Shown here piece after piece: positions 1,748-60,640 of a stretch of 64,000 nucleotides of DNA. The stretch is from Mucilaginibacter geliditolerans (lineage in GTDB: Bacteria; Bacteroidota; Bacteroidia; Sphingobacteriales; Sphingobacteriaceae). The notes under the pieces were generated by a model. The model was not told the DNA's origin. It saw nothing but the letters and a program-made list of their open reading frames with translations, and ran no database searches. Position 1 is the stretch's first letter. Each line of letters begins with the position of its first letter. Made by a program: the position numbers and the translations under genes. The DNA lies in the NCBI RefSeq assembly GCF_014200495.1, contig NZ_JACHBY010000005.1:62001-126000 (forward strand), written 5' to 3'.

Positions 1748-2520
1748 TTATTGCGAACGAAGACAACCCCCGGCTGTGCAGAGCGAGTATGTATAGTTCT
1801 TTACTTATCGCATGGTATCGCTTGTCGCTAAGACGTCACTTTTTGTCTTGATACCACAGGTGTTCGGAAGATTGCATTTTTGTTTTTAATTCCCTCCCCA
1901 CGGGAGGGGTGCGTTTGGATGTGAAGTGGCAGGGAGGGGTTTATACGCCAAATAAGCTGTTAAACCCCACCCTTCCCCGCCCCAAGGCGGGAATCGCACA
2001 AGGCCAATGCTTCCTTTTTCCATCTTCCGAACACCTGTGGTCTTGATACAAAAAGTAACCAAAAAAATCAAGTCAGTAGATTAGGCTTCTTTGCCGCACA
2101 GGCCACTTCCCTGCAAATCAGGCAAAACCAGGGCTGCTATATTTTTACCCTGCTGTCGCTACGCAATTGGCCTTTGCACTTCTGTAAAAATCTGCTATGC
2201 CCTGCCATTGCGCACAAGGCCACCATCGTTTTGCCTGGTTTCACCCGAAGCTGTTCTACTGACAGAGCTACATAATTTATTAAACTGAGGAAACTTTAAA
2301 TGAACCGTGATAAAAAGCGGGTAAAGGCCCGACAAAAAGCGCGGGCCTGGGTGTTTTGCCTGTGGGTGGAAGGATCTTTTTGTCTTGATTTTTTGCTACC
2401 TTTTGTATCAAGACAAAAGTAGTAGCCTCCGCGGCAATGAGCGGCTTCGCGCGATATTAAAACGATATGCATATTCGCTCTGTATAGCTTAGAGATTGCT
2501 TCGTTTCTTACAGCAATAAT
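1748..2520 (+). mobile_element. Dispersed MITE-like repeat, copy D (interrupted)
   Basis: The copy lies between the synthetase paralogue and the PAS kinase. It shares a core (2086-2263) and a second block (about 2313-2394, containing a GCGGG/CCCG hairpin) with copies at about 36562-37196 and 60178-60640; the copy at 48681-49386 shares the core only. The ends are inverted: the right flank around 2385-2445 (TATCAAGACAAAAG, then CCTCCGCGG) reads on the opposite strand like the left flank of copy C. Its left end is split by the 185-bp element at 1855-2039. There is no credible coding sequence. The outer limits are approximate. Confidence 0.75.
1855..2039. mobile_element. 185-bp nested element with 18-bp TIRs and 10-bp target duplication
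   Basis: It begins CACAGGTGTTCGGAAGAT and ends with its exact reverse complement. It is flanked on both sides by the direct repeat GTCTTGATAC (1845-1854 and 2040-2049), a sequence that occurs once at the matching position in the sibling repeats. The interior holds G/C-rich hairpins (CCTCCCC/GGGAGGGG and CCCGCCCCAAGGCGGG) and no open reading frame of note. This is the footprint of a non-autonomous transposable element. Confidence 0.85.
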
Positions 2521-2530
2521 GCTTCTTATA

Positions 2531-5065
2531 CTACAACGGCAAACTAAAATAAAAAGTCGATCCCTTGCCCGATTCACTTTCTACCCATATCTCACCATCG
2601 TGCCGGTGAATGATCTCGGAGCTTAAATACAGGCCGATGCCAAAGCCCGAAATGTGACGGGTATGAGCAGTTTCTACACGGTAATAGCGGTCGAAAAGTT
2701 TATTAATATCCTGTGGTTTTATGCCCATGCCCTCATCTTTCACACTCACCTGTACATTATTGTCAATTACCACGCATTGCACCTCAATATATTTGCCTTT
2801 GGGCGAATATTTAACGGCATTGGTAAGCAGATTGGAAATAACAGAACCTATTTTATCACGGTCGGCATATACCTCAATATGATCGTAAGGGGCCAGGCTG
2901 ATGGTGTGGCTTGACACTGTAAGCTTCACTTCATCCATCATCTCGGTTAACAGTTGCACGATGTCGAAATGCTCTTTTGCAACATGGATCTTACCGGATT
3001 CCAGCCTTGAAATATTCAGGAAGCCGTTGATCATGGTGCCCATTTTTTTCACCTGTATATTGGCTTTATCCAGTGCGCCGGCAATAAAGCTATCCTCACT
3101 GTTTTTAAGCTTCATGTTAAGTACCTGCACAATGGCCGTAAGCGAGGTAAGCGGCGTTTTTAGCTCGTGGCTAACCATACCTATAAAATCGCTCTTGCGC
3201 TGCTCGTCCTGTTTTTGTTCGGTAATATCCATTACCACGCCAGAAAAGGTGGTAAACTCATTTTCGTGGTCCCTGGAAAGTTTGCCTAATGAACGAAGCC
3301 ATATCAGTTGACCGTCATTAAACCGCCGCATGGTGTAGGTGAAATCATAATTGCCACCATTGAAAATGGCATCGTCGATCTGTTCTAAAATCTTATCCCT
3401 GAAATCTTCGGTTACCTGGCCAATCGCCTCATCAAAGGTCATTTCCTTATCCACATCATAACCAAATAATTCTCTGAGGCGTGGCGTAGTTTTTAGCTCC
3501 CTGGTGTCGGCATTTATATACCAGGTTCCTATATTGGCGGCCTCTAAAGCAAAACGCAGCATTTCTTCTGCCTGCTCTACCTTTTTGCGGGCGTTAACCT
3601 GCTCCGTAACTTCAATGGACACAACCATTACAGCTGTAGTTATACCATCGTCGTTTTTTATAGGCTGATAAATAAAGTTAAAGTAACCGTTTATCAGCTG
3701 CCCCTTATGGTTAATAACAGCGGGGGTTTCATTGCCATAATAATTTTCGCCGGTAGTGAATACATCGTCAAGCAATTTAAAAAATGACTGCCCTTTTAAT
3801 TCAGGAACGGCTTCTTCAAAAGGTTTGCCAATAATGCTTGCATCCTTACCCAGCATAAACTGCATTTTGTCATTGGCCGCTTCAAATACCAGTTCACGCC
3901 CGCGAAGCAGGCAAATAGCAACCGGCGCCTGCTGTACCAGGCTACGAAAACGGGATTCACTTTTCTCTATCTCTACAACTAATTGCTGAAGGTGCCATTG
4001 CGTTTCTGTTAATTCTTCATTAGTGGCGGCCAATTCCTCATTAGCGGCAACCAACTCCTCATTAATAGCCTGAAACTCTGTTGCGCTTTCTTCAATTCTT
4101 TTACGGGTGGTCACTTGTGTTGTAACTTCGGTACCAATGGTAATTATGCCGTTTATAACGCCTTCGGCATCGTATAGCGGTTCATAAACAAAATCAATAT
4201 AAGCGGTTGTCATTTTCCTGTTCCTGAACAGTTGAACAGGTAGTTCTTTAGCGGAGAAAACTTCACCGGTATTAAAAACATTATCAAGCAGTTGTTTTAT
4301 CCCCTGATCAAGCAGTTCGGGCATGGTTTGCAGTATGGGTTTGTTCAATACCTCGGGTAGTCTTCGGCCCCAAAGTTCAAGTGCGCGGGCATTGGCAATC
4401 TCCACCACGTAATCGGGGCCCCGGAAAATGGCGATGGCAACCGGTGCCTGTAAAATAATAAGACGCAGGTTGTTATCATTCTCCTGTAACTTTTTTTGAA
4501 TAAGCCTGTCGGCCTCCCGCGCTACTTTTAAATGGCGGTTTGTTTCTTCGAGCTGCTTATTTGCTACTATTTTTGCAGTGGTTTCGGTACAGGTTACAAA
4601 TACACCAGCTGTGTCCCCTGATTCATCAGCTACCGGACTGTAGCTAAATGTCCAGTAAACATCTTCTATTTTGCCGTTACGGTATATCGGGATCAATTGG
4701 TCCTCACTCCAGGTTGCCTCGCCTCCTGCAAGCACCTGGTTTATAAGTGGTTTAATCGTGTTCCATATCTCAGGCCAGGCCAAATGGGCAGGCATGCCTA
4801 ATATAGACGGATGTTTGCCATGTTGCCCCAAACTCGGGCGGTAAGCATCGTTATAAAAACAAACAAGCTCAGGGCCCCACCATAAAAACATAGGGAACTT
4901 TGAGTTTAAAATAATACTGAGTGTTGTTCGTAAGCTTTGTGGCCAGGCATCAGGAGTACCCAAAGCAGTAACCGACCAATCGGTGGTTCGCATTAACTCA
5001 CCCATTTCGCCGCCGCCTTTCAGAAACGGATAGTCCTTATTTTTTGGTTGATCTGCTTGCTGCAT
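2531..5065 (-). CDS. Multi-PAS cytoplasmic sensor histidine kinase
   Basis: The 844-aa protein has no membrane helix. Four PAS-like domains cover about residues 30-165, 190-320, 365-495 and 500-615. A Glu/Asn-rich coiled coil lies around 325-365. The HisKA dimerisation/phosphoacceptor domain carries SHELKTPL with His633, and an HATPase_c domain covers about 735-844 (SNLLTNAVKYSP N-box and GIGLYL G-box). The first PAS begins with the TALGTPDAWPQSLRT segment common in Bacteroidota multi-PAS kinases. No response regulator adjoins it, so it is an orphan kinase. The signal is unknown. It is divergent from the M16 protease genes across a 194-bp gap. Confidence 0.9.
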   Translation of the reverse strand: MQQADQPKNKDYPFLKGGGEMGELMRTTDWSVTALGTPDAWPQSLRTTLSIILNSKFPMFLWWGPELVCFYNDAYRPSLGQHGKHPSILGMPAHLAWPEIWNTIKPLINQVLAGGEATWSEDQLIPIYRNGKIEDVYWTFSYSPVADESGDTAGVFVTCTETTAKIVANKQLEETNRHLKVAREADRLIQKKLQENDNNLRLIILQAPVAIAIFRGPDYVVEIANARALELWGRRLPEVLNKPILQTMPELLDQGIKQLLDNVFNTGEVFSAKELPVQLFRNRKMTTAYIDFVYEPLYDAEGVINGIITIGTEVTTQVTTRKRIEESATEFQAINEELVAANEELAATNEELTETQWHLQQLVVEIEKSESRFRSLVQQAPVAICLLRGRELVFEAANDKMQFMLGKDASIIGKPFEEAVPELKGQSFFKLLDDVFTTGENYYGNETPAVINHKGQLINGYFNFIYQPIKNDDGITTAVMVVSIEVTEQVNARKKVEQAEEMLRFALEAANIGTWYINADTRELKTTPRLRELFGYDVDKEMTFDEAIGQVTEDFRDKILEQIDDAIFNGGNYDFTYTMRRFNDGQLIWLRSLGKLSRDHENEFTTFSGVVMDITEQKQDEQRKSDFIGMVSHELKTPLTSLTAIVQVLNMKLKNSEDSFIAGALDKANIQVKKMGTMINGFLNISRLESGKIHVAKEHFDIVQLLTEMMDEVKLTVSSHTISLAPYDHIEVYADRDKIGSVISNLLTNAVKYSPKGKYIEVQCVVIDNNVQVSVKDEGMGIKPQDINKLFDRYYRVETAHTRHISGFGIGLYLSSEIIHRHDGEIWVESESGKGSTFYFSLPL

Positions 5066-36538: not shown

Positions 36539-36561
36539 ACGAAAAGGGGCTATTTCACCAC

Positions 36562-37196
36562 GCGTCATTGCGAGGTACGAAGCAATCCCAAACTATGCAA
36601 GTCTATTCTAACTTGTCATTGCGAGCGATAGCGCGGCAATCTCGTAGCTATACAGAGGGAATTGCTTTTTTGTTATGTCGCATGGTATCGCTCATGGCCA
36701 CTAAGGCCTATTTCTTTTGTCTTGATACAAAAGAAACAAAAAATCAAGTCAGTCGAAATGCTTCTTTGCGCACAAGGCCATTACCCTGCAAACCAGTCAA
36801 AACCTGGGCTGCTATATTTTTACCCTGCTGTCGCTACACACTAGGCCTTCGCTTCTGTAAAAATCTGCTATGCCCTGCCACGCTCAAGGCCACCATTGTT
36901 TTGCCTGTTTTCATCCGAAGCTGTTCTACTGACGGGAAAGGAGCCTCACCCAACCCTCTCAAAAGGGGAGGGCCTTAAATAACCCGAAATCAAAAGCGGG
37001 CAAATGCCCGACAAAAAGCGCGGGCCTGGGTGTTTTGCCGGTGGGTGGAAGGATCTTTTTGTCTTGATCTTTTGGTTACTTTTGGATCAAGCCAAAAGTA
37101 ACTAAGGCTCCGCGCCTATGAGCGGCTTCGCGCGATATTCACGCAAGCATATTCGCTCTGCATAGTTTGGGATTGCTTCGTACCTCGCAATGACGC
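36562..37196 (+). mobile_element. Dispersed MITE-like repeat, copy A (635 bp, perfect 38-bp TIRs)
   Basis: The ends 36562-36599 and 37159-37196 are exact reverse complements over 38 bp. They start GCGTCATTGCGAGGTACGAA, the widespread REP-type motif. The interior holds the family core (36771-36933), a CCCTCTC..GGGGAGGG hairpin insertion (about 36950-36975), the GCGGGCAAATGCCCG hairpin block and a fold-back of TTTTGTCTTGAT / ATCAAG-type arms. Apparent ORFs are shifted by indels compared with other copies, so it does not look coding. Confidence 0.8.
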
Positions 37197-37256
37197 TTGG
37201 TGAGAATCTTAGTAAATAAACCCTCCAATCACATTCATGTAAATTATTTACCCTTA

Positions 37257-42830: not shown

Positions 42831-42906
42831 GTCATTCTGAGCGATAGCGAAGAACCTTTGTGCTGACTATACGCCGGATAGGTTCTTCGCTATCGCTCGG
42901 AATGAC
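42831..42906. repeat. REP-like inverted repeat (GTCATTCTGAGCGATAGCGA)
   Basis: Arms of 27 bp (GTCATTCTGAGCGATAGCGA continuing AGAACCT, and its complement with one mismatch) form a long hairpin downstream of the DJ-1/PfpI gene, adjacent to the terminator. Confidence 0.75.
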
Positions 42907-48680: not shown

Positions 48681-49386
48681 GCGTCATTGCGAGGAACGAA
48701 GCAATCCCCGACTATGCAGATCTGATTTGCAAGACGGTTTATCTTTCGCCTGCAGCCGCTCATTGCCGCGGAGGCTACTACTTTTGTCTTGATACAAAAG
48801 GTAGCAAAAAATCAAGTCATTAGAAATGCTTCTTTGCCGCACAAGGCCATTGCCCTGCAAATCAGGCAAAACCTGGGCTGCTATATTTTTACCCTGCTGT
48901 CGCTACGCACTTAGCCTCTGCGCTTCTGTAAAAATCTGCTATGCCCTGCCATCCTCTAGGCCACCATCGTTTTGCCTAATTTCATCCGAAGCTGTTCTAC
49001 TGACGGGAAGAAAAAAAGAAAAAGCATGGGCCCTGACAACAAGGGCGGGCCAGCGTAGGCGGGAATGCCGGTTTAGCTTTTTGTTTGATGTGAGGTACGA
49101 ATGTACCGAACAGCGAAAAAAGCGTAAAGAACCGGCAGGGAGCGGGGAAGCATCCTTGTTGTCTTGATTATTCATCTATTATTTGTTCTTCATTGGTATT
49201 CATGAGCTCCCTACGGTCGGTTTTTTTAGTTACTTTTTGTATCAAGACAAAACGGCGGAGCCCTCTTGAGCGCCTTAAAAAAACAAACAACTTGCGAAAA
49301 AAGTGACGTCTTAGCGACAAGCGATACCATATGATAGGTATTCGATCTGCATAGTAGGGGATTGCCTAATGCCTTACAGCATTGAC
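48681..49386 (+). mobile_element. Dispersed MITE-like repeat, copy C (706 bp, divergent right part)
   Basis: It shares the core (48829-49004) and the left fold-back arm (48757-48816, GCCGCTCATTGCCGCGGAGG then TACTACTTTTGTCTTGATAC) with the other copies. The left arm is the exact complement of the right arm of copy D. The outer left end GCGTCATTGCGAGGAACGAA pairs imperfectly with the right end. The second conserved block of copies A, B and D is replaced by unrelated G-rich sequence (about 49010-49230). Confidence 0.75.
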
Positions 49387-55791: not shown

Positions 55792-55860
55792 ATATGCATA
55801 TACGATAAATTTATCCTGTAGGTGATTGATTTGTTAAAATATTTATTGTGAATGTCTCTA

Positions 55861-55953
55861 CTGTCATTTCGAACGATAGAGAGAAATCTTCTTCGATTTG
55901 CAAAACGGCTATGCAGGTTGTAGAAGATTTCTCTCTATCGTTCGAAATGACAG
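55861..55953. repeat. REP-like inverted repeat with 32-bp perfect arms
   Basis: CTGTCATTTCGAACGATAGA continuing GAGAAATCTTCT (55861-55892) and its exact complement (55922-55953) surround a 29-nt loop. It lies between the NIPSNAP gene and the peroxiredoxin gene on the minus strand. The family is that of 25093-25178. Confidence 0.8.
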
Positions 55954-55964
55954 TGGGGGTAAAA

Positions 55965-60177: not shown

Positions 60178-60640
60178 GAGTCGCATGGTATCGCTCATAG
60201 CCGCTAAGGCCTATTTCTTTTGTCTTGATACAAAAGAAACAAAAAATTAAGTCAGCAGAAATGCTTCTTTGCCGCACGAGGCGGTTGCGCTGCAAATCAG
60301 GCAAAACCAGGGCTGCTATATTTTTACCCTGCTGTCGCTACGCTCATGGCCTTTGCGCTTCTGTAAAAATCTGCTATGCCCTGCCACGCACAAGACCACC
60401 ATCGTTTTGCCTGATTTCGCCCGAAGCTGTTCTACTGACGGGAGCTACATAATTTCTTAAGATGATGAGGCTTTTAAATGAACCGTAATTAAAAGCGGGT
60501 AAATGCCCGACAAAAAGCGCGGGCCTGGGTGTTTTGCCTGTGGGTGGAAGGATCTTTTTGTCTTGACTTTGTTCTTTTGTGTCAAGACAAAAGAACTAGC
60601 CTCCGCGGCAATGAGCGGCTATCACATGATAGGTCAACAA
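60178..60640 (+). mobile_element. Dispersed MITE-like repeat, copy B
   Basis: It shares the core (60264-60439) and the hairpin block (GCGGGTAAATGCCCG, about 60493-60560) with copies A and D. The inner fold-back arms are left TTTTGTCTTGATACAAAAGA and right TGTGTCAAGACAAAAGAACT. Its outer REP-type ends have decayed: the left now begins GTCGCATGGTATCGCTC. The rest of the 675-bp gap to the lipoprotein gene (60641-60755) holds no recognisable feature. Confidence 0.75.

Follow-up and report, generated by a model that had tools for sequence, protein, structure and literature searches.

Pseudoknotted leaders and exchangeable folded cargos in a family of non-coding fold-back elements of Mucilaginibacter geliditolerans

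The window analysed here is a 64,000-nt stretch of contig NZ_JACHBY010000005.1 from the genome of Mucilaginibacter geliditolerans (hereafter G000; 26 contigs, 6.5 Mb); G026 and G029 denote relatives of this host, and L-numbers denote single loci. A first-pass annotation, made from the letters of the window alone, had described four fold-back copies (D, A, C and B in order of position), and families of direct and inverted repeats were recovered at all four places. As had been proposed, the cores of the four copies share one orientation, the covariance model putting each of them on the plus strand. A common core likewise exists, but its length by the covariance model is 193–199 bp and not 163–178 bp. 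The left arm of copy C is indeed an exact complement of the right arm of copy D, over 49 nt (48754–48802 versus 2398–2446). The location given for copy A (36562–37196) was correct, but its complementary tips extend further on both sides (Table 1). Within each copy, the left arm complements the right arm, as claimed; the arms are, however, inverted copies of a structured leader rather than ordinary terminal repeats.

Because the right arm, read on the minus strand, is the same leader leading into other cargos, we describe the fold-back element as two leader-plus-cargo units arranged tail to tail, in which the left cargo is core0 (the core of the first-pass annotation) and the right cargo is either core1 or core2. 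The coordinates of these parts are collected in Table 1. A scan of the window allowing one mismatch placed REP palindromes at both ends of copy A and at the left end only of copy C, and returned none for copies B and D.

Table 1. Positions of the fold-back elements, leaders and cargos in the window (position 1 is the first base of the window).
Feature	Position	Strand	Basis and remarks
Copy D, left leader	1838–2072	+	Split by nested element 1855–2039; pseudoknot partner 2067–2072
Copy D, left cargo core0	2068–2266	+	Covariance model
Copy D, right cargo core1	2331–2384	-	Read from sequence
Copy D, right leader	2384–2419	-	Pseudoknot partner 2384–2389, hairpin 2400–2419, loop 2407–2412
Copy A, whole fold-back, between two CGTC-type REP ends	36563–37195	.	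Repeat search and REP scan; complementary tips 36555–37203
Copy A, left leader	36711–36748	+	Hairpin 36711–36736, loop CTTGAT 36721–36726, pseudoknot partner ATCAAG 36743–36748; coordinates read from sequence
Copy A, left cargo core0	36744–36936	+	Covariance model
Copy A, right cargo core1	37010–37062	-	Closed by GACAAAAAG/CTTTTTGTC; coordinates read from sequence
Copy A, right leader, inverted	37063–37102	-	Pseudoknot partner 37063–37068, hairpin 37075–37102, loop 37086–37091; coordinates read from sequence
Copy C, whole element	48683–49386	.	Left REP at 48683; right limit taken from the first-pass annotation
Copy C, left leader	48781–48816	+	Loop 48788–48793, pseudoknot partner 48811–48816; coordinates read from sequence
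Copy C, left cargo core0	48812–49007	+	Covariance model
Copy C, right cargo core2	49035–49163	-	Closed by GACAACAAGG/CCTTGTTGTC; coordinates read from sequence
Copy C, right leader	49163–49252	-	Extra sequence 49169–49222 interrupts the leader
Copy B, left leader	60214–60251	+	Loop 60224–60229, pseudoknot partner ATTAAG 60246–60251, one G.T pair; coordinates read from sequence
Copy B, left cargo core0	60247–60442	+	Covariance model
Copy B, right cargo core1	60509–60562	-	Coordinates read from sequence
Copy B, right leader	60562–60596	-	Pseudoknot partner 60562–60567, hairpin 60571–60596, loop 60581–60586; coordinates read from sequence

The left arm of copy D is interrupted by an unrelated nested element of 185 bp (1845–2049 with its flanks), a MITE with near-perfect inverted ends that lies inside the loop of the left leader. 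The sequence GTCTTGATAC is present on both flanks of this element as a perfect 10-bp duplication. A second copy, with a different 10-bp duplication, was found at L185, and 3/3 distinct flanks (copy D merged with an identical flank) display a perfect 10-bp duplication, representing two different targets. An apparent fourth cargo type proved to be this nested MITE and was rejected. Other small palindromes of the window, one at 55860–55954 and one ending at 42906 (GTCATTTCGAACGATAG..., GTCATTCCGAGCGATAG...), lie outside the family.

To the left of a typical core, a short G+C hairpin is followed by a hairpin such as GTTACTTTTGT-CTTGAT-ACAAAAGTAAC, a short A-rich linker and then ATCAAG, where the first helix of the core starts; the six-base loop of the leader is complementary to the linker just before the cargo. 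Since MAFFT alignment of the leader misplaced the loops, a motif-based count of loops and linkers was used instead, covering 124 entries, of which 44 were of another type or undetected. The sixth base of the loop–linker pairing is Watson–Crick in 37/37 cases from other species (T-A 25, C-G 6, A-T 6) and fits in 40/43 cases from G000, where each of the four window copies enters the count twice and the exceptions are one T-G and two C-A. Six or more complementary bases are found in 31/64 distinct loop/linker pairs, compared with 12 % when the partners are swapped, and some units possess quite different loops with matching linkers (e.g. L160, with 8 bases). The loop–linker rule is not universal: 40/59 hairpins have five or more complementary bases, and 8/67 leader entries have no hairpin.

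Core1 is closed by its first strand in Table 1 with the partner ~46 nt further on, and core2 in the same manner with the partner ~120 nt further on. With duplicates removed, a closing helix accompanies the strict leaders of G000 in 20/21 cases for core0, 18/18 for core1, 6/6 for core2 and 1/4 for other cargos; the corresponding values for G026 are 27/28, 16/17, 13/13 and 0/1. By comparison, 98.6 kb of RNase P loci, used as a control, contained one strict leader, which had no closing helix, and the strict leader detector returned none in a letter-shuffled window.

Covariance folding of the core revealed a conserved secondary structure with compensatory change, by which both the core0 fold and the loop–linker pair are kept. 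In 45 aligned cores, 25/50 proposed pairs change on both sides. The core0 covariation score is 0.160, compared with 0.072 ± 0.004 for shuffled data (0/500 reach the observed score), and it falls to 0.039–0.052 when partners are slid; these controls are imperfect, the structure being derived from the same alignment and many rows coming from one genome. The proposal that the reading frame is not conserved between copies, and that nucleic acid and not protein is what is conserved, is upheld by this compensatory change together with the core lengths, which fall on all three residues modulo 3 (27/25/23 in 75 rows). Stop-free frames are numerous in the cores (124, against a mean of 41 in letter shuffles; 75 rows, six frames). 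As those on the plus strand are evenly spread over the three frames (39, 36 and 30), we ascribe them to composition and structure and not to one protein. Protein coding of the core was rejected, given the lengths on all residues modulo 3 and stop-free frames that are not confined to one frame.

Rfam 15 returned no family at gathering score in the window and, in twelve loci of other genera, none for the leader units (one cobalamin riboswitch lies elsewhere in L411). Permissive Rfam scans gave weak matches only, far under the cut-off and mostly to miRNA models. The leader-plus-cargo units are reminiscent of the structured bacterial RNA families of Rfam 15 in their covarying multi-helix fold with a pseudoknot, but unlike them in that none of these families reaches its gathering score on the units. 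No published family could be named in the first-pass annotation, and we found none for core or leader in Rfam or in the open-licence literature searched; in particular, no described RNA or mobile-element family was found to account for the leader.

The family is large and intergenic, and its units are multi-copy and genus-wide. When 150 of the 2109 candidates in the 6.5 Mb of G000 were scored with covariance model R1, at least 62 core0 matches were obtained, including at least 59 that span the full core with scores of ≥147 bits; the counts are lower bounds for this reason. Under stricter filters, with which weak matches are lost, core0 was detected in 123/149 genomes of the genus (26 had no match), in 42/201 genomes of the order (41 from the genus itself, plus one weak sister-genus match) and in 6/395 genomes of the phylum, all six of the same genus, with 0/389 non-genus genomes positive. 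The core pattern run over named genomes yielded 41 loci, of which 38 are titled Mucilaginibacter and three are 'Bacteroidetes bacterium' MAGs. No core0 match was obtained in plasmid and phage collections, and two exact core patterns gave 0 matches in IMG/VR; the leader pattern nevertheless found core0-like units there. Three or four core0 units in the same orientation occur within a few kilobases at L061, L062, L063 and L169, all from relatives, with a spacing of ~400–580 bp in 3/4 of these loci.

The first-pass annotation had left the choice between a MITE family and a structured RNA. The latter suggestion stands as far as the conserved fold is concerned, but the fold may act either as RNA or as single-stranded DNA, and on either strand. 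In one rival explanation, the units would be transcribed as structured non-coding RNAs that serve the cell, with the leader as a shared domain for processing or binding and the cargo as the working part; the covarying complex fold and pseudoknot are consistent with this. The minus strand looks more RNA-like: in core0, G.T pairs account for 4.6 % and A.C pairs for 1.6 % on the minus strand, compared with 1.3 % and 3.4 % on the plus strand, and the unpaired plus-strand letters are C/T-rich and therefore purine-rich on the minus strand. We do not count this lean as proof because the unpaired core0 columns carry the same directional bias as the wobble pairs, and the wobble excess is far under that of an RNase P control comprising 27 rows from the same genus, in which G.T and A.C stand at 8.4 % and 0.8 % on the true strand and at 4.4 % each on the wrong strand. 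The same lean, in small numbers, is seen in the leader stems of 21 non-genus units (6 A.C and 0 G.T cells).

Folding was similarly two-sided. For copy B, the complete core gives better folds than its shuffles when either strand is folded as RNA (z -3.6 and -3.0), but also when it is folded as DNA (z -3.57). A 150-nt piece of copy A, cut short of the 3′ halves of its outer helices, did not outperform shuffles on the plus or the minus strand. Against RNA genes, too, are the absence of a clear link between core0 orientation and that of tandem neighbours (the same in 14 cases and opposite in 20, by a crude ORF caller), the flipping of contents at shared sites described below, the genus genomes without a match and a promoter that is not demonstrated. 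On balance, RNA genes with a cellular function appear unlikely to us.

Many G000 copies adjoin CGTC-type REP palindromes. In the flanks searched near 57 G000 loci, REP ends were present on both sides at 14, on one side at 25 and on neither at 18, whereas rows from relatives (some of them duplicated) had REP ends on neither side in 50/71 cases and on both sides in 0/71. Since the REP ends are mostly absent in relatives, we regard the REPs as a local frame and not as part of the unit. The REP-end motif has 203 matches in G000, compared with 0 for the reversed control, and among the places listed it often occurs as inverted pairs of 80–110 bp. The distance between the chosen REP ends is 435–951 bp (17 loci), and a 5-bp stem, ATTGC/GCAAT, appears in 2/3 consensus strings folded as DNA.

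Di Nocera et al. 2013 (PMC3733652) describe CGTC REPs with dimers, spacers mostly of 20–100 bp and no dedicated transposase, and leave their mobilisation open. The REP ends reported here resemble the dimers of that account in their CGTC head, AT-starting stem, arrangement as inverted pairs and location mostly between tandem or convergent genes. They differ in stem length (8–9 bp there), in the far greater distance between ends, which here enclose two leader-plus-cargo units, and in the lack of any REP end from most rows of relatives. The family also recalls the REPIN/RAYT system (PMC6006769) in being palindromic, non-autonomous and multi-copy and in that G000 also has Y1-transposase genes. It is unlike REPIN/RAYT in that no Y1 gene is flanked on both sides by ends and in that the defining fold is the pseudoknot leader and not the REP. 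The REP motif was found on both sides within ~1.5 kb at 0/7 Y1-transposase genes of G000, one of the seven having a REP pair on one side only, ~0.6 kb past the gene. Y1 transposases were rejected as a partner on this ground.

As judged by a crude ORF caller, 55 classified G000 loci lie in 34 tandem, 18 convergent and 3 divergent gaps; window gaps of ≥200 bp, for comparison, comprise 8 tandem, 1 convergent and 4 divergent. The position of 52/55 loci in tandem or convergent gaps would suit passive extragenic palindromes, that is, BIME/REP-like DNA at gene ends serving as terminators, mRNA stabilisers or protein-binding DNA and changed by recombination or slippage only. The REP ends, and the deletion to one solo hairpin at the L023 site (see below), are in keeping with this explanation, which leaves unexplained, however, both the covarying six-base loop–linker pairing and the occurrence of the same leader before unrelated cargos and in other families. 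We view passive palindromes as quite improbable.

MITEs have terminal inverted repeats and target duplications. A classical MITE family, dependent for its movement on another element's DDE or Y1 transposase, would account for the high copy number and for ends common to many of the 80–110 bp inverted pairs, and the units are similar to MITEs such as the nested 185-bp element in being short, non-coding and dispersed. Their arms are, however, oppositely placed structured leaders and not terminal inverted repeats; REP-type ends are absent from both sides in 50/71 rows from relatives; and no target duplication was found for the family among the sites examined, in contrast to the nested MITE with its perfect 10-bp duplications. 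The MITE suggestion of the first-pass annotation is not supported, and we consider it very improbable.

Comparison of the 57 G000 loci with G026, in which 15/57 were not resolved, gave a picture of persistent sites. At 28 sites, the two genomes have common flanks and a core in both (two judged by one flank only); these sites were found through G026 loci fetched for carrying the core and are therefore biased and uninformative on the frequency of sharing. Searching by flank alone at 14 further sites revealed nine with a core in G026, four without and one found on one side only. Of the 37 sites occupied by a core in G000 and G026 alike, 11 have it in opposite orientation. At 6/37, the two cores of the shared site are nearest relatives when set against the G026 cores compared (45 in the first set, 54 in the second), and all six are in the same orientation; 0/11 inverted sites have a nearest-relative core, the best rank being 2. 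Simple in-place inversion by the arms was rejected on these data: as no inverted site retains its own core lineage, replacement fits rather than simple flipping. Between these two related species, then, the sites persist, but what they contain is mostly replaced and often inverted. The first-pass annotation had taken a single conserved position for each copy in all relatives as an argument against mobility; on this point the outcome was mixed, many sites being common to the close relative but holding contents that are mostly exchanged and often inverted.

No clean empty site was seen among those examined in relatives. In G026, the L025 site holds a remnant, the L023 site one solo REP hairpin, the product expected of a deletion between short repeats, the L020 and L080 sites other sequence and the L021 site a gene. 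In G029, site C has a ~90-bp REP palindrome in place of the element. When contig C151 of G029 is compared with contig C3 of G000, the left flank of one G000 site is joined to the right flank of another, a junction that recombination between elements of opposed orientation would produce.

The leader is more widely distributed than core0. Its exact pattern occurs in 31/395 Bacteroidota genomes, four of them from the home genus, and in 17/170 genera, with 0 for the reversed control. At the loci read outside the genus, 19/22 distinct matches have the hairpin and 9/19 the closing helix, compared with 4.5 % when the downstream sequence is shuffled; the leader-plus-cargo rule is therefore weaker there. 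Several wider cargos have a common apical stretch like ACTCGCTTCGCTCAGACAG. At L407 (contig C4 of G376), four leaders lie within 9.5 kb; the first 24 cargo bases behind them are the same but continue into two different interiors, which suggests that cargo may be exchanged outside the genus too.

A 40-base leader query matched Parabacteroides distasonis plasmids (three records, E 2e-7), an Aureibacter tunicatorum plasmid (E 0.003) and a plasmid of Ilyobacter polytropus, a member of Fusobacteriota (L412; best E 0.1, with 13 places at a loose limit); other matches look like chance. Further weak matches of this query were obtained in plasmids and phages. The Ilyobacter stretch contains two facing leaders with different matching loops (CTTGAT/ATCAAG and CTTGAA/TTCAAG). 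In the P. distasonis plasmid L414, the leader (3001–3040) immediately follows an HU-family gene and is itself followed by genes for a smalltalk protein and an amidase; in two other plasmids matching L414, the DNA match starts ~30 bases before the leader. Among 57 distinct leader-pattern matches scored in IMG/VR, 46 had no hairpin and were taken as chance (80/87 stretches listed).

We propose, with a probability of roughly 0.45, that the family consists of non-autonomous non-coding units with a constant leader and an exchangeable cargo, which spread through recognition of the leader fold and subsequently recombine between sites. A unit comprises a short G+C hairpin, a hairpin of ~7–12 bp whose six-base loop pairs with the downstream linker, and a cargo domain closed by a helix starting right after the linker; the cargo types core0, core1 and core2 differ, and the leader is constant. 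A single-stranded form, either RNA or DNA exposed in replication, may fold, and a putative trans-acting enzyme may read the leader fold and copy or insert the units. The nearly symmetric arms (leader and, in the host species, CGTC-REPs) could then allow homologous recombination to swap and flip cargo between sites, and recombination between elements might at times rearrange the chromosome. Were the leader read by an enzyme and the units recombined in this way, their spread would be selfish or neutral, and the fold would be selected through that recognition.

Weighing against this proposal, no enzyme was linked to the units, and the family yielded neither a clean empty site nor a target duplication. 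Ordinary recombination, without transposition, is enough to account for conserved sites whose contents are exchanged, and core0 cargo is confined to one genus, bar the weak sister-genus case. A broader version of the proposal, which we put forward tentatively and consider somewhat doubtful, is that a hitherto unnamed class of structure-recognised mobile units extends across Bacteroidota and to a megaplasmid of Fusobacteriota, the pseudoknot leader being a passport, read on single-stranded RNA or DNA by a putative enzyme, with which any folded cargo behind it would move and be exchanged between fixed genomic slots.

For genome annotators, stretches of these repeats that are free of stops in several frames are a possible source of spurious hypothetical proteins. 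More generally, what appeared to be a MITE family becomes a modular system of a constant folded leader and an exchangeable folded cargo that is present far outside the genus and, if an enzyme reads the leader, it would provide a new handle on the spread of extragenic palindromes.
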